A program made the position numbers and the translations under genes. The notes beneath the pieces are model-generated. The model was not told the DNA's origin, did not search any database, and saw only the letters and a list, made by a program, of their open reading frames with translations. A stretch of 64,000 bases of DNA from a virus: positions 1-64,000 of the IMG/VR virus record IMGVR_UViG_3300040796_000034. One strand, 5' to 3'. How positions within the stretch are numbered: position 1 is the stretch's first letter; each line of letters starts with the position of its first letter. Shown here piece by piece: positions 27,386-60,249 of this stretch.

Positions 27386-28420
27386 ATGTCAAGAAAACTA
27401 ATTACTTTACGAAAAATTGAAGATATTAAACCTATAGAAGATGCTGATTTTATTGAGATAGCTGTAGTAGATGGTTGGAACGTAGTTGTAAAGAAAGGTG
27501 AATTTAACGTAGGTGATTATGCTGTTTATGCAGAGATAGATAGCTTCATACCTCACGAGTTAGCGCCGTTTTTGTCCACGGGAACCATGCCTAAAGTTTA
27601 TAAAGGTGTAGAAGGTCAAAGACTTAAAACTAAACGTCTTAAAGGTGTTTATAGTCAAGGTTTACTCTTACCTTTTGAAACTCTTTTAGACAAAGACTTA
27701 AGTCAATCATTAAATGTGAAATACTATGACCCGTTTGAGACTAGAGAGAAAAAGTTATCTACAGAAGCTCTTAGTAAATTTCCTTCATTTATTCCAAAAA
27801 CCGACCTTGAAAGAGTTCAAAACCTTAAGAGAGACTTTAATATTTGGAAAGATAGTCAACTAGAGTTTGAAGTGACAGAAAAACTTGACGGTAGCTCTGT
27901 TACTATTTTTCTGGATAAGTCAGAATTAGAAAAAGGTATCTCTGTATTAAGAGTTGCTAGTAGAAAAGAGGTTAAAAAAGATATACCAGAATCTATTTTT
28001 TGGACAGGTGTTAGGAATGAAAAAATAGATGAGTTATTTCTCTCATATAAAGATGCAAAGAAATATGCTCTTCAAGGCGAGCTTTTAGGAAATAAGACAG
28101 GTTCAACAGGTAGAAATATTTATAGTGTAGAAGATTACTCTATTTATATTTTTGATGTATTTGATATTTTAAATGGACGTTATTTAACTTCTAGTGAAAG
28201 AAATAAAGTTTTAGATGATGTAGGTATTTCTATTAATCAAAGAGTTCCTTGTATTAATCAACAGGCGACTCTTTCTAACTTTGAAAACGAGTTACTTTCA
28301 GCAGATGGTATCTCAAAAATCGCTAAAGTTAAGAGAGAGGGTCTTGCCTATAAATGTCTTTCTGATACAAACATTCGATTTAAAATTATCTCAAATAAAT
28401 GGTTATTAAAATATGATTAA
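27386..28420 (+). CDS. ATP-dependent RNA ligase, Rnl5/DraRnl-like with N-terminal OB module
   Basis: 344 residues. The first 100 (IEIAVVDGWNVVVKKGEFNV, then GDYAVYAEIDSFIP) resemble the N-terminal OB module of the Deinococcus RNA ligase (Rnl5) family. The nucleotidyltransferase core follows: motif I EKLDGSSVTIF near residue 165 with the adenylated Lys, VASRKE (motif Ia), YALQGELLG (motif III), YSIYIFDVF (IIIa), EGLAYKCL (IV) and RFKIIS (V). All motifs needed for activity are present. Rnl5 enzymes seal nicks with a 3'-OH RNA end. It is one of two unlike RNA ligases in the window, the other at 34254. Together with the Thg1-like enzyme it points to tRNA or RNA repair. Confidence 0.85.
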   Translation: MSRKLITLRKIEDIKPIEDADFIEIAVVDGWNVVVKKGEFNVGDYAVYAEIDSFIPHELAPFLSTGTMPKVYKGVEGQRLKTKRLKGVYSQGLLLPFETLLDKDLSQSLNVKYYDPFETREKKLSTEALSKFPSFIPKTDLERVQNLKRDFNIWKDSQLEFEVTEKLDGSSVTIFLDKSELEKGISVLRVASRKEVKKDIPESIFWTGVRNEKIDELFLSYKDAKKYALQGELLGNKTGSTGRNIYSVEDYSIYIFDVFDILNGRYLTSSERNKVLDDVGISINQRVPCINQQATLSNFENELLSADGISKIAKVKREGLAYKCLSDTNIRFKIISNKWLLKYD

Positions 28421-28855
28421 ACAATATTCGATTGCAATTAATTTTAACGATAATGATTTTTTACAAGGGTTTATAGAGTTTTTGATTCATTATTTACTTT
28501 AATTAAAGCTAATAATTACAACAATCATCTAAAAGATACTTTAGAAAACTTAGAAAAACTTACAGATGTTAATAATAAAGAGTTTTTAAAATCACAAATA
28601 CTATCTCTTCTATCTTTTGATAAAACTCTTTTAGAAGACACCTTTGACTATCAAGATTACTTTGAAAAAACATTAAAACAAGTTTTAGTGAATGAAGAGG
28701 TACAGACTTTTATTGAAGATAGCGTAAAAGATATTAAAACCAACACTTATTGGTATAATCAAGAGTTTTATATTTTAGATATTTATGTAATACCAGATAA
28801 TCGATTTGCAGATAACCATGATTACCGGATGTTTCACAAAATCTCAGTAATTTAA
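28413..28855 (+). pseudogene. unknown gene split by a -1 frame change in a T5 run
   Basis: The ATG at 28413 overlaps the RNA ligase end and encodes MIKQYSIAINFNDNDFLQGF, then stops after 29 residues. Moving to the -1 frame within the five T residues at 28479-28483 opens a frame running to TAA at 28855, giving about 148 residues in all (DSLFTLIKANNYNNHL, later FHKISVI). The second part has normal codon use for this genome and is closely packed against the next ATG. No family recognised. It is a frameshift mutant, a recoded gene or a sequence error. Confidence 0.65.
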
Positions 28856-28856
28856 T

Positions 28857-29363
28857 ATGACAGGAAATATTTTAGCAGTTAATATTGGACAAAAATCTGT
28901 ACAACTAACTTGTATTTCGGGTAAACTTGATAAAGTAGAGGGTCTTTTTAGTAAGATTTCTTTTGCTAATGAAGGTTTAATCAGAAGTTTTTCAGATAAC
29001 TTTAAAAAAATATGTCTAGTGAAGCATATAAATCAAATTGTTATCTCAAACTTAGGACCATATAGTACCTATTCACAGGGTCTTGTACATGGATTTATTT
29101 ACTCTTTTGTGACTAATAATTCTCGATTTATTAAATTTGATATTTACAGTAAAGAGGGTGTTATAGATGCTATGGGAATTGATAGATACTCCGAATATTT
29201 TAGAAAACCTTACGATAGTCTTACTACCAAAGAAGTTAATGACTATTTAGATACACATCCTTTACTCGAAAAGATTAGTTATGTAAATCCAAGTAATAGA
29301 GGTACTCGATATTCTGATGTTTTAGCGTATCACTGTTTAGAAGAGGTTTTACAAAATGACTGA
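28857..29363 (+). CDS. RuvC-fold paralogue 1, catalytic residues replaced
   Basis: 168 residues. Aligned by eye with the RuvC-like protein at 29871: ILAVNIGQKS replaces IIAIDTGLQR (Asp to Asn), IVISNLGPYSTYSQGL replaces FLVYEYPCFTNKTSQI (Glu to Asn), and TRYSDVLAYHCLEEVL replaces ELDDTIDAIAIALVTY (one Asp kept). The strand-helix order is preserved, so it looks like a Holliday-junction-resolvase fold that has lost its metal site. It could bind junctions or partner the active enzyme. It overlaps the next gene by 8 bases. This relation is my inference from short motifs. Confidence 0.5.
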   Translation: MTGNILAVNIGQKSVQLTCISGKLDKVEGLFSKISFANEGLIRSFSDNFKKICLVKHINQIVISNLGPYSTYSQGLVHGFIYSFVTNNSRFIKFDIYSKEGVIDAMGIDRYSEYFRKPYDSLTTKEVNDYLDTHPLLEKISYVNPSNRGTRYSDVLAYHCLEEVLQND

Positions 29364-29883
29364 CACTAATATTCTTGTAGGAAATATCTTACCTAAATCA
29401 GTACAAATATCTTTAATTGAAAGAGTTTCTGTTAATAATACTTTCTATAATCGAATTATTAGTACAGACAAAAAAATTAAATACAGTAAAGAAGTTGACC
29501 CTTACAATTTTATTGATTTATTAATGAAATGTTTTTATCATAAAATGTTGAGTAAAGATAAGCTTGATACTAGGCTCGTTTTTTCTAATATTGGACCATT
29601 TTCATACAATAACTTAGCTTTTTTTAAAGGTTTACTTAAAGGTTTGAATAGAGAATATACTCTTATAGATTGGAAAAAAGTTTGTCTGCATATACGGGAT
29701 GACTTAGGTATTAAAAATCGAATACCTGAGCCAATGACTAAGGAAACGATAGACTCCTACATCGATAACAATCTAATGTTAAAGTCAGAGAACGTAGAAT
29801 ACTTAAATTTTGATATAAATAGGTCAAGATATGCTGATGCAATTGCGTTTTATTATTTACGAAACTACTTATGCCAAACATAA
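29356..29883 (+). CDS. RuvC-fold paralogue 2, catalytic residues replaced
   Basis: 175 residues, clearly related to the preceding protein: NILVGNILPKSVQISLIE at the N-terminus, LVFSNIGPFSYNNLAFFKGL near residue 72, and SRYADAIAFYYLRNYL at the C-terminus. As in paralogue 1 the first Asp is Asn and the central Glu is Asn. The start overlaps the previous gene by 8 bases, and the end overlaps the RuvC-like gene by 13 bases, so the three are translated together, consistent with one complex. Confidence 0.5.
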   Translation: MTDTNILVGNILPKSVQISLIERVSVNNTFYNRIISTDKKIKYSKEVDPYNFIDLLMKCFYHKMLSKDKLDTRLVFSNIGPFSYNNLAFFKGLLKGLNREYTLIDWKKVCLHIRDDLGIKNRIPEPMTKETIDSYIDNNLMLKSENVEYLNFDINRSRYADAIAFYYLRNYLCQT

Positions 29884-30401
29884 TAGCAATTGATACTGGA
29901 TTACAAAGACTCGGTTATTGTCATTTACGCTATAACGATACCGGGTTTGAATTAAAAAATTACGGTACATTTGAAACAAGTAATAAAGACTGTAGAGGAA
30001 AAAGACTTTACAATATTCGACAATTTTTACTAGGTGAGCTTTTTGTAATTCCCAATTATAGTTTTAAAGATGTTTATGAATTTGTAAATTTTTTAGTTTA
30101 TGAATACCCATGTTTTACTAATAAGACAAGTCAAATTTTAGGAACCGTGATAGGTGTTATTGAATCCTCTTATTTTGAATATGAGTATAAAGAAGCTTTA
30201 TCTATTTCACCTACAGAAGTTAAAAAGAAAATCTTCGGAAAAGGTACTGCAAGTAAAAATCAAGTTAAAATTGGCGTTATAAGAAAACTTCAAGAATATA
30301 ACATTGAGTTAGATTTATCAAAAGAGCTTGACGATACCATAGATGCTATTGCAATTGCTTTAGTAACTTATGAAGATTTAAAATCAGATATAAACCCTTA
30401 A
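29871..30401 (+). CDS. RuvC-like Holliday junction resolvase
   Basis: 176 residues with the four RuvC carboxylates: IIAIDTGLQRLGYC (Asp7), FLVYEYPCF near residue 76 (Glu), and ELDDTIDAIAIAL near residue 155 (two Asp). The segment between them contains ISPTEVKKKIFGKGTASKNQ, which corresponds to the yxPxEVKkxvtGxGxAxKxQV signature of RuvC. Length equals bacterial RuvC. Resolvases cut branched DNA before packaging and resolve recombination intermediates. It is the third of three consecutive related genes. Confidence 0.8.
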   Translation: MPNIIAIDTGLQRLGYCHLRYNDTGFELKNYGTFETSNKDCRGKRLYNIRQFLLGELFVIPNYSFKDVYEFVNFLVYEYPCFTNKTSQILGTVIGVIESSYFEYEYKEALSISPTEVKKKIFGKGTASKNQVKIGVIRKLQEYNIELDLSKELDDTIDAIAIALVTYEDLKSDINP

Positions 30402-36151: not shown

Positions 36152-36157
36152 TTATCT

Positions 36158-36230
36158 CGGGATATAGCTCAGTTGGTAGAGCGCCACTTTTGGGAAGTAG
36201 ATGTCGGAGGTTCAAATCCTTCTGTCCCGA
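36158..36230 (+). tRNA. tRNA-Pro (UGG)
   Basis: Cloverleaf: acceptor CGGGATA / TGTCCCG, D arm GCTC-AGTTGGTA-GAGC, anticodon loop TTTGGGA (anticodon TGG), T loop TTCAAAT. The anticodon stem has one C-A mismatch. CCA is not encoded. Confidence 0.9.
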
Positions 36231-36233
36231 TAA

Positions 36234-36305
36234 AGCGGGGGAGTGAAATGGTGTCACACGAGTCTCATAAGCTCGTAATAGCAGGTTCGATTCCTGTTCC
36301 CGCTA
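36234..36305 (+). tRNA. tRNA with CAT anticodon (Met, or Ile if lysidinylated), copy 1
   Basis: Acceptor AGCGGGG / TCCCGCT, D stem GTGA / TCAC, anticodon loop CTCATAA, T arm GCAGG-TTCGATT-CCTGT. CCA not encoded. With two CAT tRNAs here, one may be the isoleucine type modified by TilS; the sequence alone cannot tell. Confidence 0.85.
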
Positions 36306-36309
36306 TTAA

Positions 36310-36382
36310 GCTCTTTTGGCCGATTAGGGAGGCAGCGAACTCATAATTCGCCTTAAGGCTGGTTCGATTCCAGCAGAGAGCA
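36310..36382 (+). tRNA. tRNA with CAT anticodon (Met, or Ile if lysidinylated), copy 2
   Basis: Acceptor GCTCTTT / AGAGAGC, D stem GCC / GGC, anticodon stem GCGAA / TTCGC with loop CTCATAA, T arm GCTGG-TTCGATT-CCAGC. Distinct from copy 1 in every stem, so not a recent duplicate. CCA not encoded. Confidence 0.85.
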
Positions 36383-36490
36383 TCTTTAGTTAACATCGTA
36401 GTATGAAATTTGTAATTTTTCTGCTAATCTAATAAAAGAAAATATAGACACTATTATCGTGAATAGTTTAGTAATTTAAAAATAATTAAT

Positions 36491-36742
36491 ATGTCATATC
36501 CTACAGACAAAGAGTACGTTATTGTTGAAAGTTTTATTCTTCTAGCTCGTAAAAAATATGGAGAGAGTGCTTTAACGGTTTTAGTTAAAACAGTAGAGTG
36601 GTTACAAGAACTTGAATGGACAGAAAAAGAAATAAGTTACTGGATTAGTAAATTTGATGAGTTTGAAGTAGCTAAGAAATTTTTACAAGATGCAATGAAT
36701 ACGAGTGAGGAAACACAAAATCAATTAGAAGATAAAATGTAA
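36491..36742 (+). CDS. small unknown protein between tRNAs (83 aa)
   Basis: 83 residues, helical and acidic, unrecognised (ESALTVLVKTVEWLQELEWT near residue 24). It lies alone between the tRNA pair and tRNA-Tyr. The 108 bases in front of it (36383-36490) hold no gene that I can support. Confidence 0.6.
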   Translation: MSYPTDKEYVIVESFILLARKKYGESALTVLVKTVEWLQELEWTEKEISYWISKFDEFEVAKKFLQDAMNTSEETQNQLEDKM

Positions 36743-36755
36743 AAATAAGATATTC

Positions 36756-36842
36756 GGGTAGGTATCCAAATTGGTGAAGGAGTTTGACTGTAAATCAAAT
36801 GCTCGTGTGCTGAACATGGGGGTTCGAGTCCCTCCCTGCCCA
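36756..36842 (+). tRNA. tRNA-Tyr (GUA)
   Basis: Class II tRNA with a long variable arm. Acceptor GGGTAGG / CCTGCCC, anticodon stem TTTGA / TCAAA with loop CTGTAAA (GTA), T arm GGGGG-TTCGAGT type. Only CA of a possible CCA follows the stem. Confidence 0.9.
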
Positions 36843-36865
36843 TCAAAAATCTATAGAAAACGAAA

Positions 36866-37654
36866 ATGAATAAAATTAGATTAATCAATGGTGACTGTCT
36901 TATTGGATTAGATAAGTTATTTAGTGAAAAGATTAAAGTAGATGCTGTTATAGCAGATATTCCTTATGGAGTTACCGCTGCTAAGTGGGATTCTGTCATA
37001 CCTTTTGACCTTATGTGGAATTTTATAGACAAGGTTAGTAAAGAAAATGCTGCAACAGTTTTATTCGGAGTAGAACCTTTTAGTAGTAAGCTTAGGTTAA
37101 GTAATTTACAAAATTTTAAATACGACTGGATTTGGCACAAAAATACTACAAGTGGTTTTGCTTTAGCTAAGAAACAACCTTTGAGAAACCATGAAATCAT
37201 ATCTGTTTTCTATGAGAAACAGTGTACATACAACTATATTAAAGAACCTAGAGATTTATCAGAGTCTTCTCAAAAAAGATTTCAATATGCTTTTAATACT
37301 GAGAAAGGGTTAAACGTTTTACAAAAAGGTTTAAAAAAAATTAAATATATACCAGAAGATAAAAATCTTTCTTATCCTAAGACTGTTAAATATTTCAAAA
37401 CATTAGGTAACAACTCTAAAGATAAAATACACCCTACTCAAAAACCGTTAGATTTAATAGAATACTTAGTAAAGACATATACAGACAAAGACCAAACTGT
37501 ACTAGATTTCACAGCAGGGTCTTTTACGACGGCAATTGCTTGTATTAACACTCAAAGGTCTTTTATAGGTATTGAGTTAGATAAAACTTATTTCGATAAA
37601 GGTCTTTCTCGTGTACAGAATAGTCTTTTAGATAGTTTTGTGTTAGAGTATTAG
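36866..37654 (+). CDS. N6-adenine/N4-cytosine DNA methyltransferase-like, altered SAM motif
   Basis: 262 residues. Catalytic motif IV VDAVIADIPYGVTAAKWD lies near residue 27 (DIPY variant of D/NPPY), and the SAM-binding motif I follows near residue 213 (TVLDFTAGSFTTAIAC, then FIGIELD), the beta-class order. HPTQKPLDLIEYL precedes it. Motif I normally reads DxFxGSG; here the second Gly is Phe (GSF), which may weaken SAM binding. A paralogue with the normal Gly lies on the other strand at 37889. No restriction endonuclease is nearby. Position inside the tRNA cluster suggests protection of phage DNA or epigenetic control. Confidence 0.8.
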   Translation: MNKIRLINGDCLIGLDKLFSEKIKVDAVIADIPYGVTAAKWDSVIPFDLMWNFIDKVSKENAATVLFGVEPFSSKLRLSNLQNFKYDWIWHKNTTSGFALAKKQPLRNHEIISVFYEKQCTYNYIKEPRDLSESSQKRFQYAFNTEKGLNVLQKGLKKIKYIPEDKNLSYPKTVKYFKTLGNNSKDKIHPTQKPLDLIEYLVKTYTDKDQTVLDFTAGSFTTAIACINTQRSFIGIELDKTYFDKGLSRVQNSLLDSFVLEY

Positions 37655-37662
37655 AAAAAATG

Positions 37663-37734
37663 GCGGGTGTCGTCTAATGGTTAAGATTGTAGGCTTCCAC
37701 CCTATCGATAAGAGTTCGAGTCTCTTCACCCGCT
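37663..37734 (+). tRNA. tRNA-Gly (UCC)
   Basis: Acceptor GCGGGTG / CACCCGC, anticodon stem GTAGG / CCTAT with loop CTTCCAC (TCC), T arm AAGAG-TTCGAGT-CTCTT. It starts 8 bases after the methyltransferase stop. CCA not encoded. Confidence 0.9.
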
Positions 37735-37745
37735 TTTCTCAGTAT

Positions 37746-37819
37746 GCAAAAGTAACTCAGATGGATAGAGTAGCGACCTTCTAAGTCGTTTGTCGTAGGT
37801 TCGAGTCCTACCTTTTGCG
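37746..37819 (+). tRNA. tRNA-Arg (UCU)
   Basis: Acceptor GCAAAAG / CTTTTGC, D arm ACTC / GAGT, anticodon stem GCGAC / GTCGT with loop CTTCTAA (TCT), T arm GTAGG-TTCGAGT-CCTAC. It reads AGA codons, frequent in this AT-rich genome. Confidence 0.9.
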
Positions 37820-37822
37820 TAT

Positions 37823-37894
37823 GCTGATGTAGCTCAACGGTAGAGCGGTTCACTTGTAATGAACGGGTTAAGAGTTCAAATCTCTTCTTCAGCT
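37823..37894 (+). tRNA. tRNA-Thr (UGU)
   Basis: Acceptor GCTGATG / CTTCAGC, D stem GCTC / GAGC, anticodon stem GTTCA / TGAAC with loop CTTGTAA (TGT), T arm AAGAG-TTCAAAT-CTCTT. The last 6 bases overlap the 3' end of the minus-strand methyltransferase gene. Confidence 0.9.
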
Positions 37895-50787: not shown

Positions 50788-53700
50788 TTACAATCTTTTT
50801 TGAACTTCCTCAATTACATTATAGAACTGATTGTTAAAGTTAGGTATATTCTTAGCTTCTTCAGTCATTGTAATTGGTGAGTTAATCGTAATGTTATTTT
50901 CTTTCTTGTCTTTAAGTAAGTCTCGAATCTCCTCTAATGTATGTGTCTGTCTAGCTATTACCTTTTCACTGTCTTTTCTAGTTTCATTAGACATCGTAGA
51001 TTTAGATTCTTTATTAATTAAAGAACGCATTTCATCAATATCTGGGATATTTGTTTTTAAAAGATTATAAGAACGGTTGTCATATTTTTTTTGGTCTTCT
51101 GCATAAGAAGAAGGCATATCATCTAAAAGACCTCGCTCCTTAGCTAATTTAGCATCGTCTTGTACTTTTTTTGCTATTTCATCTTTAGTCCAAACTTTTT
51201 TGATTTGGTCTTTTCTATTAAAACCACCGAGACGATGCCAAACATCTAAAGACTCTAACTCTAGTTTAGTCTGCCTCATATCATAAAAAGACCTCTCTAC
51301 CTCAGATAATTGGTCTGGGTTAAAATTAAGACTAGCCATAGCCTTATCAATTTTTTCATATATCTGCTTAGTAATATTATCAACAAATTGTGAATTATTC
51401 TCTTTAACTACAGTAGCCTGTCTTTCAATTATTGCGGTTTGATTTTCAATATTTTTAACTAACTTTCGTTCACCCTCTGTCATGTTTTCGGGAGAGAACC
51501 GATTTATGGCAGATGTCTGATTTTCAATATTTTCAGTAACCTTCTCTGGTATTAATTTACTTAGAATCTCTGTCTGATTTTTAAGTATTGGTGTCTGGCT
51601 CTGAATAGCTGTTACGATTTCTTTAGTAACTATCTCAGCATTTGATTCAGATAAACTCTTAGAGTAAACTTCTAAATCTTTTTTAAGACTTTCTGTTATG
51701 TCTTTTCTTTCTGGTAGTTTTAAACTAAAATCTGATAACTCTCTAAGCTGTTTAAGAAGTCTGTCTTCGGATTTATCTCTAAGTTTATTAGCCTCTCTAC
51801 GAACTCTTGCATCATCTTTACTTGACTTAGTAAATTTAGCTTTCTCACCTTCAAGCTGTAACCTCTCTTGGTCTTGCTGAAAATCTAACTGACCTACTCT
51901 TTGTCGGTCTAAATTAGCTTCTAATGCCTGTTGTTTTTGGATAACGTCATAGAGTTCCTTTTGACTATTTAAAGTCTGTACAGCAGCTTCTACAGTGAGT
52001 CTAGCAGCTTCCTTATCCTCTTCAGAAGAGTTTCTGTTTGCTTGAATCTTTTTCTCTTCAATAATTGCTAATCTTACAGCGGCTTCAGACCGTATTAACT
52101 CTGTCTCTTTTTCAATAAGCTGTCTTTGTCTAGCAAGCTCGTTTCTCTTTAACTCAAACTTAAGTTGTTTATCTTGAATTTCTTGAACTATATCTAGTCG
52201 TTTAAGCTCACCATCAAGTCTTTGCCTTTCAAGAGTACGACTACGCACTTCTGTTTTTACTAAAGACTTTTCTAAATTAAATAGGTTAGCAATACCTGAA
52301 GTAAGAATATCAATACTATTTTGTTGAGACGCAATTAGCTTATCTTGTAAACCTAAAGTAGCATCTAATACCTGATTCATGTCAGTGTATTTTTGAAGTG
52401 AAATAGAAATACTTTGTTGTCTAAGTTTTTCTAAAGATATCTGCTTATCTAACCTAGCAATAACCTCCCGGTTTTTAGCAATCTCAAGGTCTAGTAAACC
52501 ACGTTCACCTACAAGTTCCCTTCTCTGTTGGATAATTAATTGTTCATTTTTAATCTGCCTTTCTTGTAAGATTAGTTGCTCATTCTTTATTTCACTTTCT
52601 TTATCTAATAGAGATAAGTTTTGCTCAATTTGTTTTAATTGAACTTCTAATAATTCAATATCTTCTTTAGATTTATTAAATATTTCAGCTTTTTTAATCT
52701 CAAGCTCTATACTAATTTTTTGAGAATTAAGCTGTAACTCTTGTAACTGCTGTTCAGCTATAATAGATTTTTTCTGTAACTCAAGACTTTGTTTTTGATT
52801 TTCTAATTTACGGTCTTCTATATCTAAAGACTTAAGTTGTATCTCATTTTGTCTTTGTACAAGCTGTGTATTTATTTCAGCTTTCTTAACCCGGTCAGTT
52901 TCTCTATCTATGACAAGTTGAAGTCTTTCTCGCTCTAGTGAAAGTAAACTTTGTTCATACTCAAAACCAATTTCTTTCTCTTGTTGTAATAATCTAATTT
53001 GTTTAATTTCTAATTTAAGTAGTTGAATCTTATACTCTTGGGTAACTTTAAACTTTTCAAAAGCAAGCTGCTCTTGTTTAATTTGTTTCTCAAGTGCCTG
53101 GATTTTAACATCTTGAACTATCTTTGCAAATTCAGTTTCTAATCTTTCTTTTTCTTGTAAAAGTTTGGTATGTTCTACATTACCTTTTTTAAATGTCTTT
53201 GAAAGTTTTTCATTAGCCGCTAATTCTTCTTTAATCTTTGACTGCTTTAGTGCTGAAATTTTATTCAAATAGTTCTCATAAGAGATAGTGTCTTGAATAT
53301 AAGCTTTCTCCACTTCTGCTATTTCTAAATTGATTAACTGAACTCGTTCATCTTTAGCAGCTTCAAGTGTTTGCCTTTTTTGCTCTAAATGATTTTTTAA
53401 TAATTCCGTTTCTAAAATATTAATTTCTTTCTGTGTCTTAAGATACTCTTCACTACCTTTAATAGTTAGCTTAAGTTTAGCTTTTAGATACTGTATCTGT
53501 ATTTTAATCTTCTCATTGGCTAAGTTTTGCTCCTCTGCTAAGAGTTCTAAATTACTTCCTTTAGTTCTTTTTAAGGATAATGCAGCTTCTTCAATCTCTA
53601 CCTTATAAATTTTTTTACGATACTCTCTATCAAGTGTCTGGATTTTAACATCTTGAATTGTTTTTGCGGACTTAGTTTCTAATTCCTCTCTTTCTTGTAA

Positions 53701-56700
53701 AAGTTTAATATGTTCTACACTATTCTTTTTAAATGTCTCTGAAAGTTCTTTATTAGCCGCTAATTCTTCTTTAATTTTTGACCGTCTTAATGCTGAGATT
53801 TTGTTTAGATAGTTTTCATAAGAAATAATGCCTTTAACATAAGCTTTCTCCACTTCTGCTATTTCAAGATTAATTAGTTGAACTCGTTCATTTTTAGCGG
53901 CTTCAGTCATTCGTCTTTTTTGTTCTAAATGACCTTTTAATAACTTTGTCTCTAAAAAATTAATCTCTTTCTGTGTATTAAAATACTCTTCACTATCTTT
54001 TACCGCTAAGTTAAGTTTGGCTTTTAGATACTGTATCTGTATTTTAATTTTTTCATTAGCTAAGTTTTGTTCTTCTGCTAAAAGTTTTAGATTATTTCCT
54101 TTAGCTCTCTCTAAGGCTAGTTCAGCTTCTTTAATCTCTATCTTATTAGTTTTTTGACGATACTCTCTATCAAGTTTTTCCTGTTCAAACCGTTTATCAC
54201 TATTTAGTAACTGAGATTCTTTTTCTGCAATCTCTTTTAGTAAATTAAGACGTTCTATACTACCTTTTTTAAGAGTCTTTAGTCTAATCTTTTGATACTC
54301 AATATCGTTTTCTAAAATAGTATTTTGTAATTCTTTACTTTTTTGTAAATAAATATTTTCAGAAAGATTTTCTTTTAAGTATTTTTTTTCTAACTCAGCT
54401 TGTTCTAAATTAAAGTTTGCAACTCTTTTCTGCATATAAAACTTAGAAAGTTCAAGACTTTCCTTTTCAGCTAATTCAGCTAAATCTAATCTAGTTTTAT
54501 GTAATTGAGCATCTAGTTCAAGATATTCGTCGGAACCCTCTTGTAGCGCAACAAGTCTCTTTTCTAACGTATCTTTATCAATCTCTAAAGACCTTCTGTT
54601 TTGTTCAAATCTTTGTTTAAAAAGTTCCTCAGTAGTACCATTGTTTATTTCAATTTCTAATTCAGACTGCTCTTTTCGTAGTTCAATAATACGTTTAGTT
54701 TTATCCCGTTCAATATTTTGAATCTGTTTATCTCTATACAGCTTTTGTTTCTCAAAAGTATTCTCAAGTAACTCTAGTTGAATCTCTTTTCGTTTATCTG
54801 CATTATTTCTATATAAACCAAGTTCTTTAAGTAAACCTTGACGAGCTATCTCCAGTTTCTTTTCTTGCAATTTAAACTCTTTATCTAATTCACTACTGTC
54901 AGAGCCGTCTAACATAGCTTGCTGACTTTGAATAAGCTGTTTTTGAAGTGCTGAATTTTTTAACCGTACTTGTTCTTCAATTCTCTTTTTATTTAGTTCC
55001 AATATAGTACGATTTTTCTCAATTTCTAAATCTTTTATTGCTTGAACAATTGCAGCATACTTTTCTTTATATAACTCATCTTCTTTATCTAAAGATGCAA
55101 GAGTTTCTTTTTTCTCTCTAATTAAGTTGACATAGTATTTAGTCTCTAATCGTGAAATATTATCTAAGTAAGTCTGTCTAGTTACTATACCTGACTCAAG
55201 ATTGTCTTGTAAATCTTTCTTCTCTCGGTCTATTAAAATTTGTCGAAGTTTAGTTACTCTATCTTGTTCCTGTATCTGTAGTTTAAGTCTGAGATTGATA
55301 AGTTCTTGTTCAGCTTTTTGTACATAAACACTCTCTTCTGAATAAGATTTTTTAAGAGTTTCTATTTCAGCTTCTTTTACTTCAATAAATTTTTTAGTAA
55401 CTAACTCTTGTAAATCAAATGTTTGTTTTGCATAGGTCTGTTCTAGTAAAAGTTTCTGATTAAATAAGCTTTCATACTTCTCAATACGCAACTTGTTTAA
55501 CAGGGTTTCCTCTTGACCAATATTTTTCTGAATATTTAATACCTGTTCTTGTAAAGCTTTATAGACTTCAGGTTCAATATACTGTTTAATTTCTTCAGTG
55601 AAAATAGATAGTCTTTGTACAGCTTCTTTAGATGTAATTTCCCCGGCAGCGTTAAGTTCTCTGATGTTATTTAAGTAACTATTAATCTGAGAGTTAAACT
55701 TTTGAGGGTCAATCTCTTCAAAAGAAAATGTTTTAACTAATTCAACTCCAATATCCTTAAGATTACTAATTAGCTCTTCTTTATTTTCACCGTTAATACT
55801 TTCATAGATTTTGTCAAGTTTTTCTGTAGGAATATCTGAAATAGCTATACCTAACTGTTTAAACTCTTGAGCTAATGATTCTCTAGTGACCTTTATTCGC
55901 CCGTTTAATAAGCCGTCAACTAAGTTTTTAACTTCTGTATCAACGTAAGATGTTTGACCCTCTATAACAGCACTAATCTTTGACAAGGTATTATCTAATT
56001 GAGCTTCCAACTTATCACTTTCAGTATTTAGTGAAGTAATAAAAGAAGTTACGCCTAAGTTATCTTCATTAGTATTTAAGAATTTTCTACGAGTTTCTTT
56101 ATACCTGTCTTCCATAACCTGTACAGAAGTAATGATTGACTTAAATGTGTCTGTATTAATATTTTTAAGTACATTACTATTTTTTAGATATAGCTCTTCT
56201 AAATTCGCTGCAATCCTCTCAACATCCTCTTGATTCTTAGCTCCTAAACTATTTAATAGAGGTTTGTATTCATCAATAGATGCTAATAATTCAGCTATTT
56301 TAATTTTTTGACCGTCAATCTGTTCGCCCGACAAAGCTTTAGTCAATGTATTAAACGCCTCTTGATTTATTTTAAGAGTTTCTTGACCTTCTTCATTAAC
56401 AGATACAAGGTCTGTTTTTAAATCAGTTAATGTTTGTTTAAGTACAATAGAACCGTCATTAACACTTTTAATAAAATCTGTACTATTATTAACGATTTTA
56501 TTTTGATACAAGCTAAAACTAGACTGTATTTCGTTATTTAGTTCATAGTTAAGGTTTTGTAAACTATTTTTTGTATTGTCTAATTCATTTACAGAGATAA
56601 CTTCGTTTTGAGTGTCTTTAAGTGTATCTAAATATTGGTTTCTTACTTTTAGGTATTTTTCTTGCTCTTTATATGTTTCAATACTTACTCTTTTCAACTC

Positions 56701-59700
56701 TTCAAGTGTTTGAATTTTTGCACGAGTCATATCTAACTCAGCCTTTTCTAAATCAGTCATTTTCTTACCTTTGTCTTCTAAAATCTGAACTCGTTGCTCT
56801 TGTACAGCTATAGAATTTTCTACAAACTTAATCCTTTGTTTATGTATCTTCTCTTCACGGTTAAAATCCTCAGCAGTTAATAAGATTTTTTCTTTAATTT
56901 TTTCATTAGTTATTTCTGATAAAGGTACACCTTCTCTCATTAACTTATTCTGTTTAATTATTTGAAGATTGCCTCTATGTAAAGAATCTTCTAAATCAGC
57001 AAATACTTCAGCCCTTTTACTATAGCCAGACAACCTAGCTTGCCAGTCTTTAATACCTAACATTTTTGTTAAGCTATTACCGACATCACCGTAAGTTACC
57101 ACCTCTTTATTAAAATTTTTTAACTTCTTATCAGCATCTACTAATCTATCTGAGAGTTTAAGTAAAGTCTTTTCGCTACGATTGTAAGCAAGACCGAGGT
57201 TATCCATATTACTTACATGGTCTTTTACATCTTTACTTAGTTCTTTATAAGTCTCTTTAAGCTCGTTATTCTTACTTATAAGAGAACCTATTTTCATAAT
57301 AAGCCCCATTACGACCGTTAGAACTGCCATAGAAGCAATTGTTGACATAAGACCTGCAACAGCTAATCCAGCACCCTTAATAGCTCCAGAAAGCCCTCCA
57401 AACTTAATCTTTAAAAAATCAACTGCTTTAGCTATAAAAGGAAATTTTGTAAGAATACTTTTAGTGAATAGGCTAATCTTTGTTTGTGCCGTCTGTGCTT
57501 TAGTTGATAGAAATGTAAAACCTTTACCAACTTTAAGTAACCAAGGAAACTTTTTAATCAAAGACGCTGTAGTGGCATCTATTTGATTTTTCACAAAGCC
57601 CATTATTTTAGCATTAGTTTTATGTATGATATTATTTCTTACAATTACTTCATTGCCAAAAACCATGATTTTAGTTAACTTACCTTGAGCTAACCCTTCC
57701 TCCTGTATAGCTATTTTTTTAGCTCGTGAAAGATTAAGAGAAGTTTGTTTAACTACATTTTGTTGAGCTTCAAGTTCCGTGTTTACTTGTGTTAATTGAT
57801 TTGTTAACCTCTGTATATTCCACTCATTTTTATTAACTTCGAGTTTTGCTTTATCAAGTTGTATAGACAAAGCTTTTTGAGTGTTTTGTAAACGAATTAA
57901 TTGAGCTTGTTCAAAATCCTGTTTAATTTGTGCAGCGCTTAAGTTTAAATATACTTGTTTAATATTATTTACTTGCGTATCGACTTTAGCAGACACACCT
58001 TTTTTAATAGCTCCTAGTTCTTTAAGCTGTTTAATTTCTATATCTCTTTGTATTCTCAACATTTCTCGAAGTTTTCTCTCTTTCTCTAATTGAATTTGAG
58101 TAAGATTTTGTTGAGAACGCATCTCTTTTCTTTGAGCGCTAGTTAAATTCGCGTCGTTAGCTAGTTGGTCTTTTGAACGAGCTAATCTTTCATTTAGGTC
58201 AGCACTTCTGTTACTACTAGCCCCTATATCTTTTGCAACTGCTATAACACGACCCTTCTGTTTATTGTATTTCTCCGTAGCTTTTGTCATACCAGTTCTT
58301 TGAAGTATCTGTGTATGAGTAAACGTACCTTTAACAGCGGCATCTAATTCTTTTTGAGCATCTTTAGATAGTTTAGCTGTCTGTACAATGCCTAAGTTAA
58401 TATCAGTGACAATACCTTTTTGCTTTAATAAAGTTTGGTTAACACTTGTTAAAACTCTTCTATGCTCTTGATTAACTCCTACAAGATGTCCTAATACTTT
58501 TAACCAACCATGTTTTTCTTTTATTAAGCTTTTAATTAATTTTGTCTGGTCTAATATACCTGCATTGGTTGTACCGAAAAATTTATTTGAAATACTATTA
58601 AAGACAACTGTGAAAGCTTTAAAAGATAAAATAGTAGTGAAGGTACTAAACAGTGCTTTTCCTATAGCTACAATTGTACCCGTAACTTTACCAATCTTTT
58701 CTACAACTATTGCTAAGTTCTTTGCTAATTCAATTACTAAATCTTTATTCTCTAAGATAATATTTCTAATAGAAAAAGCACTTTCTTCATAACGTTCAAG
58801 ATATTTATTTTGCTGTTCCGAAAAAGCTTTACCAAAAGAAATCAATAGCTCGTTATATGAGTTTTGAATTGCTTGAAATTTTTTCTCTGTTGATTGAGCG
58901 ATATTCTCAAAAGCTTCATCTAACGTACCTGTTGTAGTAGCATTTATCTGTTCAAGGTTATCTACGAAACTGTTTGCTTCATCATTTGTTAAAGCAATAG
59001 CAGCTTTAAAAGCATTCATTTCTGGGAATAACTCTCTTAGCTTTTCAATATTCCCACCAAGAGCTTTACTTAACTGTTGTAGCTTAGGTCCAAAGTTAGA
59101 TAGGTCATCAAAAGTTACTCCAAGCTCTCTTAATATTTTTTTCTGTTCCGGTCCCATAGAGAGGACTGAGTTAATAAAGCTGTTTAAAGCGGTTACAGAG
59201 GGCGCTGTAGGCATACCAGAGGTTGTTAACGTATCAACCGATGCAAGTACGTCCTCAAACTCTAACCCGGCGGCTTTAGCTGAGGTAAATGCCTGGGGTA
59301 AAATATCTTGAGCTTCTTTAACAGAAGTTAAACGCAACTGTTCCATCTTCAGTAATTTAGCTGCGACATCTCCCGCCTCTTCACCACCTTTGTCAAAACT
59401 TCTAAGACTTTTAATAATAAGACCACCTACCCCAAACTTATCCGGGGAGCTTGCACCGACGGATAGTTTCTCAATAGATTCTAAAATGCTTAAGTTTTCC
59501 TTCATATCACTAAATTCACCAGAAGCAACTTGATAAGAGATAGCTAGTGAATCAATAGAGGATGTTAGGTTTTTTAAAGGGCCATCAACAGTTTTTTGTA
59601 ACTCATTACCGTATTCTTTTAAGACTGATTTAGATGCACCAAAGATTGTATTAAATTGATTTAAACTTGCTTCAAATTGGTCAAATGCAACTAAGGATTT

Positions 59701-60249
59701 ATTTGTAAACTCTTCTACAATAGCAGGGTTGAGAGTGAAAAAACCAAGCATCTCATCCTTAAGTCTGGCAATAGATACGTCATATCCACTATTTGCCATA
59801 CGATTTAATACTTTATCTGTCCTACTCCATACGTTTGTTATATCTTCTGCAAACGTTTTAGCAATTTTAGTAAATTCTGCCATGAAGATAGAGACATTAG
59901 AGTACGCATTAAAACCACCCCAAAGTATCTTACCAAGATTTATCTTTCCTGAGAGTTTTGATAGGTTACTCAACTCTTTAGTTACATTTTTTACAGATTT
60001 CTCATAAGCTTTTAATTGTTTACTCGATATTTCTACTGATTTATTAACAGCTTTTATCTGTTTATTTTGTTTAGTAAAACTTTCAGAATAACTTTTAAAT
60101 GTTTTCTGTAAAGGTGTTAATATTTTCTCTGATAAATCTTTAAGCTTCTTCTTACTTTCGTCAAAAAACTTTAATAGTTCATCACTATCCTCAATACCAA
60201 AGGCTATTTTCTTTTCTGTAGAGTTTGTGTTTTGTCCTGCCGCTACCAT
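50788..60249 (-). CDS. giant tape measure protein (3153 aa)
   Basis: Sets tail length and threads inside the tail tube. 3153 residues. The first 130 are coiled coil; residues about 200-430 contain the typical tape-measure core (ELQKTVDGPLKNLTSSIDSL and DELLKF at the start); hydrophobic helices lie near residues 530-545 and 955-990 (LMSTIASMAVLTVVMGLIMK). Residues about 1030-2900 are almost unbroken charged coiled coil, with a 180-residue tandem repeat at about 2027-2386. At the usual 0.15 nm per residue it predicts a tail near 470 nm. No lysozyme or peptidase domain was seen. It follows the frameshifted chaperone gene, the standard order. Confidence 0.95.
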   Translation of the reverse strand: MVAAGQNTNSTEKKIAFGIEDSDELLKFFDESKKKLKDLSEKILTPLQKTFKSYSESFTKQNKQIKAVNKSVEISSKQLKAYEKSVKNVTKELSNLSKLSGKINLGKILWGGFNAYSNVSIFMAEFTKIAKTFAEDITNVWSRTDKVLNRMANSGYDVSIARLKDEMLGFFTLNPAIVEEFTNKSLVAFDQFEASLNQFNTIFGASKSVLKEYGNELQKTVDGPLKNLTSSIDSLAISYQVASGEFSDMKENLSILESIEKLSVGASSPDKFGVGGLIIKSLRSFDKGGEEAGDVAAKLLKMEQLRLTSVKEAQDILPQAFTSAKAAGLEFEDVLASVDTLTTSGMPTAPSVTALNSFINSVLSMGPEQKKILRELGVTFDDLSNFGPKLQQLSKALGGNIEKLRELFPEMNAFKAAIALTNDEANSFVDNLEQINATTTGTLDEAFENIAQSTEKKFQAIQNSYNELLISFGKAFSEQQNKYLERYEESAFSIRNIILENKDLVIELAKNLAIVVEKIGKVTGTIVAIGKALFSTFTTILSFKAFTVVFNSISNKFFGTTNAGILDQTKLIKSLIKEKHGWLKVLGHLVGVNQEHRRVLTSVNQTLLKQKGIVTDINLGIVQTAKLSKDAQKELDAAVKGTFTHTQILQRTGMTKATEKYNKQKGRVIAVAKDIGASSNRSADLNERLARSKDQLANDANLTSAQRKEMRSQQNLTQIQLEKERKLREMLRIQRDIEIKQLKELGAIKKGVSAKVDTQVNNIKQVYLNLSAAQIKQDFEQAQLIRLQNTQKALSIQLDKAKLEVNKNEWNIQRLTNQLTQVNTELEAQQNVVKQTSLNLSRAKKIAIQEEGLAQGKLTKIMVFGNEVIVRNNIIHKTNAKIMGFVKNQIDATTASLIKKFPWLLKVGKGFTFLSTKAQTAQTKISLFTKSILTKFPFIAKAVDFLKIKFGGLSGAIKGAGLAVAGLMSTIASMAVLTVVMGLIMKIGSLISKNNELKETYKELSKDVKDHVSNMDNLGLAYNRSEKTLLKLSDRLVDADKKLKNFNKEVVTYGDVGNSLTKMLGIKDWQARLSGYSKRAEVFADLEDSLHRGNLQIIKQNKLMREGVPLSEITNEKIKEKILLTAEDFNREEKIHKQRIKFVENSIAVQEQRVQILEDKGKKMTDLEKAELDMTRAKIQTLEELKRVSIETYKEQEKYLKVRNQYLDTLKDTQNEVISVNELDNTKNSLQNLNYELNNEIQSSFSLYQNKIVNNSTDFIKSVNDGSIVLKQTLTDLKTDLVSVNEEGQETLKINQEAFNTLTKALSGEQIDGQKIKIAELLASIDEYKPLLNSLGAKNQEDVERIAANLEELYLKNSNVLKNINTDTFKSIITSVQVMEDRYKETRRKFLNTNEDNLGVTSFITSLNTESDKLEAQLDNTLSKISAVIEGQTSYVDTEVKNLVDGLLNGRIKVTRESLAQEFKQLGIAISDIPTEKLDKIYESINGENKEELISNLKDIGVELVKTFSFEEIDPQKFNSQINSYLNNIRELNAAGEITSKEAVQRLSIFTEEIKQYIEPEVYKALQEQVLNIQKNIGQEETLLNKLRIEKYESLFNQKLLLEQTYAKQTFDLQELVTKKFIEVKEAEIETLKKSYSEESVYVQKAEQELINLRLKLQIQEQDRVTKLRQILIDREKKDLQDNLESGIVTRQTYLDNISRLETKYYVNLIREKKETLASLDKEDELYKEKYAAIVQAIKDLEIEKNRTILELNKKRIEEQVRLKNSALQKQLIQSQQAMLDGSDSSELDKEFKLQEKKLEIARQGLLKELGLYRNNADKRKEIQLELLENTFEKQKLYRDKQIQNIERDKTKRIIELRKEQSELEIEINNGTTEELFKQRFEQNRRSLEIDKDTLEKRLVALQEGSDEYLELDAQLHKTRLDLAELAEKESLELSKFYMQKRVANFNLEQAELEKKYLKENLSENIYLQKSKELQNTILENDIEYQKIRLKTLKKGSIERLNLLKEIAEKESQLLNSDKRFEQEKLDREYRQKTNKIEIKEAELALERAKGNNLKLLAEEQNLANEKIKIQIQYLKAKLNLAVKDSEEYFNTQKEINFLETKLLKGHLEQKRRMTEAAKNERVQLINLEIAEVEKAYVKGIISYENYLNKISALRRSKIKEELAANKELSETFKKNSVEHIKLLQEREELETKSAKTIQDVKIQTLDREYRKKIYKVEIEEAALSLKRTKGSNLELLAEEQNLANEKIKIQIQYLKAKLKLTIKGSEEYLKTQKEINILETELLKNHLEQKRQTLEAAKDERVQLINLEIAEVEKAYIQDTISYENYLNKISALKQSKIKEELAANEKLSKTFKKGNVEHTKLLQEKERLETEFAKIVQDVKIQALEKQIKQEQLAFEKFKVTQEYKIQLLKLEIKQIRLLQQEKEIGFEYEQSLLSLERERLQLVIDRETDRVKKAEINTQLVQRQNEIQLKSLDIEDRKLENQKQSLELQKKSIIAEQQLQELQLNSQKISIELEIKKAEIFNKSKEDIELLEVQLKQIEQNLSLLDKESEIKNEQLILQERQIKNEQLIIQQRRELVGERGLLDLEIAKNREVIARLDKQISLEKLRQQSISISLQKYTDMNQVLDATLGLQDKLIASQQNSIDILTSGIANLFNLEKSLVKTEVRSRTLERQRLDGELKRLDIVQEIQDKQLKFELKRNELARQRQLIEKETELIRSEAAVRLAIIEEKKIQANRNSSEEDKEAARLTVEAAVQTLNSQKELYDVIQKQQALEANLDRQRVGQLDFQQDQERLQLEGEKAKFTKSSKDDARVRREANKLRDKSEDRLLKQLRELSDFSLKLPERKDITESLKKDLEVYSKSLSESNAEIVTKEIVTAIQSQTPILKNQTEILSKLIPEKVTENIENQTSAINRFSPENMTEGERKLVKNIENQTAIIERQATVVKENNSQFVDNITKQIYEKIDKAMASLNFNPDQLSEVERSFYDMRQTKLELESLDVWHRLGGFNRKDQIKKVWTKDEIAKKVQDDAKLAKERGLLDDMPSSYAEDQKKYDNRSYNLLKTNIPDIDEMRSLINKESKSTMSNETRKDSEKVIARQTHTLEEIRDLLKDKKENNITINSPITMTEEAKNIPNFNNQFYNVIEEVQKRL
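53092..54171 (-). repeat. 540-bp tandem repeat inside the tape-measure gene
   Basis: Two in-frame 540-bp copies, 54171-53632 and 53631-53092 (180 codons each, both beginning DREYR). Shared blocks include EEQNLANEKIKIQIQYLKAK and NLEIAEVEKAY. The copies differ by scattered substitutions but by no indel. Shorter related blocks recur elsewhere in the coil region. Confidence 0.9.

Follow-up and report, generated by a model that had tools for sequence, protein, structure and literature searches.

Two small genes of a phage lie directly upstream of its ruvC gene, and the question is whether they encode relatives of the resolvase that no longer cut DNA. The locus lies in a window of 64,000 nt, the whole stretch of DNA that was analysed, which comes from a virus record of 126,850 bases. 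The features concerned are:

28857–29363, + strand: ORF of paralogue 1 (168 aa), predicted to be RNase-H-like, homologous to paralogue 2
29356–29883, + strand: ORF of paralogue 2 (175 aa), predicted to be RNase-H-like, with a BLASTP E-value of 2e-8 to paralogue 1
29871–30401, + strand: RuvC-type Holliday junction resolvase (176 aa), predicted to be active from PF02075, PHROG 159, NF000711 and alignment with relatives
29356–29363, + strand: overlap of genes 1 and 2 (8 bases, from the sequence), with GAAGAGG located 9 bases upstream of the second start
29871–29883, + strand: overlap of genes 2 and 3 (13 bases, from the sequence)

An earlier note on this DNA had described three consecutive, overlapping genes, and the arrangement is as it stated: the three ORFs share a strand, lie where they were placed and overlap by 8 and 13 bases. 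Translational coupling was also considered as a sign of a special complex, and was rejected as weak, since 16 of the 31 close same-strand gene pairs across the window, about half, overlap.

The product of 29871–30401 is, on its profile matches, a genuine RuvC. It passes the curated Pfam cut-off for PF02075 (E-value 4.1e-7; 30.4 bits against a cut-off of 22.2) and also matches PHROG 159 (E-value 1.6e-16) and NF000711 (E-value 2.8e-14, below the NCBIfam equivalog cut-offs). The catalytic set is intact as D8, E78, D155 and D158 (positions D, E, D/H and D). All four residues are identical in the RuvC of the nearest relative, and the four positions are kept in all full-length RuvC copies gathered from relatives. 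The enzyme is thus predicted to be active. The source phage is, judged by its proteins, distant kin of the freshwater Pseudanabaena cyanophages; the top GenBank phage matches of its portal protein are PA-SR01 and Pam2 (27–28 % identity), and 20 ORFs of the record match PA-SR01. Among the records found, an IMG/VR virus of 150 kb (L012/G001) is the closest, with approximately 40 matching ORFs and a portal identity of 45 %. In the nearest relative, no companions of the paralogue type are detectable alongside RuvC, therefore a RuvC of this type needs no companions; the pair would be dispensable to it or would have been gained in one branch.

The genes at 28857 and 29356 are almost certainly paralogues of each other, as their predicted proteins align in BLASTP with 25 % identity and find each other in reciprocal phmmer searches against 1,993 ORFs (E-values 4e-4 and 9e-5). 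Relatives of the pair are harder to find. No convincing match was returned by the family libraries (Pfam, PHROG and NCBIfam), and the match of paralogue 2 to PHROG 33368 (E-value 0.0015) extends over the far end of a family whose function is not known. A PDB sequence search gave no matches for the pair, and PADLOC nothing of note. Likewise, no homologues were found in IMG/VR, GenBank phages, bacterial genomes or eleven related virus records; as the pattern-based scans detect no more than fairly near relatives, this absence is not proof. A weak match at L010:18327–18779 was judged to be due to chance.

No link between the pair and RuvC could be found at the sequence level. In BLASTP against RuvC, the two paralogues gave E-values of 0.92 and 4.5, and the RuvC profile did not match either protein at E-values up to 10. 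The profile–profile alignment proposed in the earlier note was run with hhalign and returned probabilities of 0.1–0.3 %, with the paralogues ranked 45th and 68th among 104 ORFs of the same genome, as would unrelated ORFs. Semi-global alignment to the RuvC profile, compared with shuffled sequences, yielded z-scores of 1.5 and −0.3 for the pair, against 44.5 for the RuvC control. The alignment by eye in three motif blocks, on which the earlier note had based the kinship, is consequently not significant in itself, as BLASTP, hhalign, the shuffle comparison and the family libraries were all negative.

Predicted structures point in a different direction. AlphaFold2 models were built from a two-row alignment of the two paralogues only. 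As this alignment contained no RuvC sequence, any structural match is independent of the initial idea. Mean pLDDT was 42 for paralogue 1 and 48 for paralogue 2, with a pTM of about 0.4, so the fold matches are to be taken only as suggestive. In the model of paralogue 1, strands at 4–10, 14–20 and 27–35 are followed by a helix at 41–56, a strand at 58–64, a helix at 71–87, a strand at 93–98 and helices at 124–133 and 150–167. The model of paralogue 2 has strands at 3–12, 15–26 and 29–37, a helix at 49–64, a strand at 73–76, a helix at 85–95, strands at 98–104 and 108–114 and helices at 129–138 and 158–174. Both models thus follow the RNase-H-like order of three strands, helix, strand, helix, strand and C-terminal helices.

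Foldseek searches of the PDB with paralogue 1 matched Thermus thermophilus RuvC (TMq 0.43–0.46) and Deinococcus radiodurans RuvC (0.42), as well as RuvX, YqgF, Tex, Spt6, aRF1/Pelota, ribosomal protein S11, ROK, NanK and PPX. Paralogue 2 matched YeaZ and the domains of Hsp70, glucokinase and hexokinase; its model favours ATPase domains of the actin-like type, which superpose poorly on it (TMq about 0.2, rmsd about 16). The highest TMq of either model in the PDB was 0.46, for models at pLDDT 42 and 48. Judging from their names, we take the PDB matches of both models to be RNase-H-like or actin-like (SCOP c.55) folds. In a viral structure library, the top match of paralogue 1 was an annotated phage RuvC (E-value 2.1e-4), and its best matches include several RuvC proteins or resolvases. 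Models lacking an RNase-H-like fold, which the earlier note had named as the outcome that would speak against it, were not obtained; the top 50 PDB matches were RNase-H-like or actin-like throughout, for models of low confidence. An RNase-H-like fold is thus probable for both paralogues on these models.

If the fold is accepted, the places of the RuvC catalytic residues can be read from the low-confidence models. They are occupied by N9, N65, R151 and D154 in paralogue 1 and by N10, N78, R158 and D161 in paralogue 2, where RuvC has D, E, D/H and D. In both models the first Asn (N9/N10) lies in strand 1, the second (N65/N78) at or just past strand 4, and the Arg and Asp (R151/D154 and R158/D161) at the N-terminal end of the last helix. 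Provided that the motif alignment is correct, the last Asp would be the sole RuvC catalytic residue kept in the pair. The proposed replacement of the first Asp and the central Glu by Asn therefore agrees with the models, although the alignment with RuvC behind it has no sequence support.

To describe these sites as dismantled is not the most apt choice. The motif blocks NIL..NI..KSVQ, SN.GP.S and RY.D..A are the best-conserved parts between the paralogues, with identity at 19 of 31 columns compared with 45 of 156 overall (the blocks were chosen after the alignment had been seen), and the Asn/Asn/Arg/Asp set is common to two proteins that are only 25–29 % identical. The site therefore looks retained and not decaying, which suggests re-purposing over decay. 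Pure decay of both genes was also considered and is unlikely, given two uninterrupted frames and an altered site common to both.

RuvC is known as a homodimer whose two active sites are equal. The reading that we tentatively put forward, at somewhat short of an even chance, is that the pair are non-catalytic RNase-H-like proteins of RuvC type, cutting-free partners that bind branched DNA or RuvC itself. Both paralogues and the predicted-active RuvC would probably be produced from the same message. As the metal-binding carboxylates are missing, the paralogues presumably have no nuclease activity. The two neutral Asn residues together with the Arg could grip a DNA phosphate without metal, and the proteins may therefore act as a clamp on branched DNA, or associate with RuvC and direct or restrict its cleavage, for instance ahead of packaging. 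Descent of the pair from a RuvC-type ancestor is evenly balanced between true and false, and a physical complex with RuvC is doubtful. Paralogue 1 is not net basic (pI 6.9), which counts against this reading. Similar sizes (168, 175 and 176 aa) and consecutive genes were counted in support of the RuvC-type reading. Of the duplicated, non-catalytic resolvase subunits of the earlier note, the RNase-H-like models and the presence of RuvC among their matches speak for the idea, while the sequence link to RuvC was not found. A more far-reaching version, in which a phage resolvase is built from three RuvC-fold proteins, of which one is active and the other two carry a conserved Asn/Asn/Arg/Asp site free of metal, is unlikely; if true, it would be the equivalent in prokaryotes of nucleases that include an inactive member of their own family as a subunit, and could allow asymmetric or single-strand cutting of branched DNA.

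The same negative comparisons (BLASTP, profile–profile and shuffle) would be expected if the genes were a lineage-specific tandem RNase-H-like pair that does not descend from RuvC and merely lies beside ruvC, with an unrelated role such as host takeover, anti-defence or RNA/nucleotide metabolism. This is possible but on the doubtful side. The neighbouring genes for RNA ligase, ribonucleotide reductase and MazG suit such a role, the top PDB matches also include aRF1/Pelota, ribosomal S11, ROK and PPX domains, and relatives are lacking from every set searched. However, several RuvC proteins or resolvases are among the best viral structural matches, and the key residues are positioned as are the four of RuvC, in proteins of equal length encoded next to it. 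A more radical view, that the likeness to RuvC arises from chance short motifs and weak models and that the paralogues have some other fold, draws on the uniformly negative sequence tests and the low model confidence. It is improbable, given the agreement among the two models, a number of motif positions and the RNase-H-like/actin-like matches from two PDB searches.

The actin-like matches also raise the possibility of a split actin-like (ASKHA-type) unit, with one RNase-H-like domain per gene and a heterodimer binding nucleotide or sugar. Foldseek matches to YeaZ, Hsp70, glucokinase and hexokinase for protein 2 and to ROK, NanK and PPX for protein 1 would fit, as would the similarity of the N-terminal NILAVNIG to a phosphate-1 motif. 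Nevertheless, the phosphate-1 Asp is replaced by Asn in both paralogues, each domain has only about 170 aa and lacks the additional elements found in such kinases, and TM-scores are low, leaving this very unlikely.

Several known systems bear on the reading of the pair as RuvC-type proteins that do not cut. The gene at 29871–30401 is itself a member of the RuvC family (PF02075; phage type, e.g. that of lactococcal bIL67), with the four acidic residues present. The upstream pair resemble RuvC in size, predicted strand/helix order and motif order, but carry Asn, Asn and Arg for three catalytic residues and have undetectable sequence similarity to it. Asn at the first catalytic position, as in the pair, gives nuclease-deficient RuvC in phage bIL67 (D8N) and Escherichia coli (D7N) (PMC3864405); these are single engineered laboratory mutants, whereas the pair differ naturally at three of four positions, in both paralogues. 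Incomplete active sites are known in the RNase-H-like superfamily and often leave the protein inactive (PMC3985635). The YqgF-like domains of Tex and Spt6, structural matches of protein 1, are RNase-H-like with an incomplete active site, as predicted for the pair (PMC3985635), but sit in large transcription factors and not in small genes beside a resolvase. For the division of work, the model would be MUS81–EME1/EME2, a nuclease whose partner subunit is a diverged, inactive member of the same family (PMC3973302). The likeness lies in the proposed working, in which the inactive EME member acts on MUS81 and shapes the substrate choice of the active subunit; it is an analogy only, as this complex has the ERCC4 fold and is eukaryotic. 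A search of the open-access literature turned up no account of naturally inactive RuvC partners from phages. Natural non-cutting RuvC kin encoded beside RuvC would offer a simple system for testing how the binding and cutting of junctions can be split between subunits, and how inactive nuclease subunits originate. If the pair are not tied to RuvC, they nonetheless make up a small new family, with a probable RNase-H-like fold and an altered site that is conserved.

Additional observations were made on the relatives and the neighbourhood. In the nearest relative, two small adjoining ORFs (approximately 100 and 109 aa; L037:7471–8090, − strand) that are alike by eye lie 3′ of ruvC; they are unrelated to the 28857/29356 pair. 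A second so-called RuvC of PA-SR01 (L003:25178–25546; PA-SR01 75193–75549) is without the N-terminal third, including the first catalytic Asp, and resembles a remnant of another RuvC subtype at the end of the neighbouring gene. The genes around the trio encode ribonucleotide reductase, a PHA02142-type RNA ligase, a MazG-type pyrophosphatase and the portal protein. Between the RNA ligase and the paralogue pair, a gene at 28413–28855 is in two frames: an ATG at 28413 leads to a stop at 28502, and the −1 frame is open from 28457 to 28855, with no usual start codon close to where it opens. The heptamer T TTT TTA occurs in frame at 28457–28463, with no unusually stable RNA fold 3′ of it; the split may be a −1 frameshift, or else an indel in the record. 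Further along the window, seven tRNA genes are clustered at 36157–37894 (Pro, two with CAT anticodons, Tyr, Gly, Arg and Thr), and an eighth (Cys) lies outside the window. A 3,153-aa ORF at 50788–60249 on the − strand shares partial similarity with the PA-SR01 tape measure protein and with a 2,273-aa ORF in the nearest relative.
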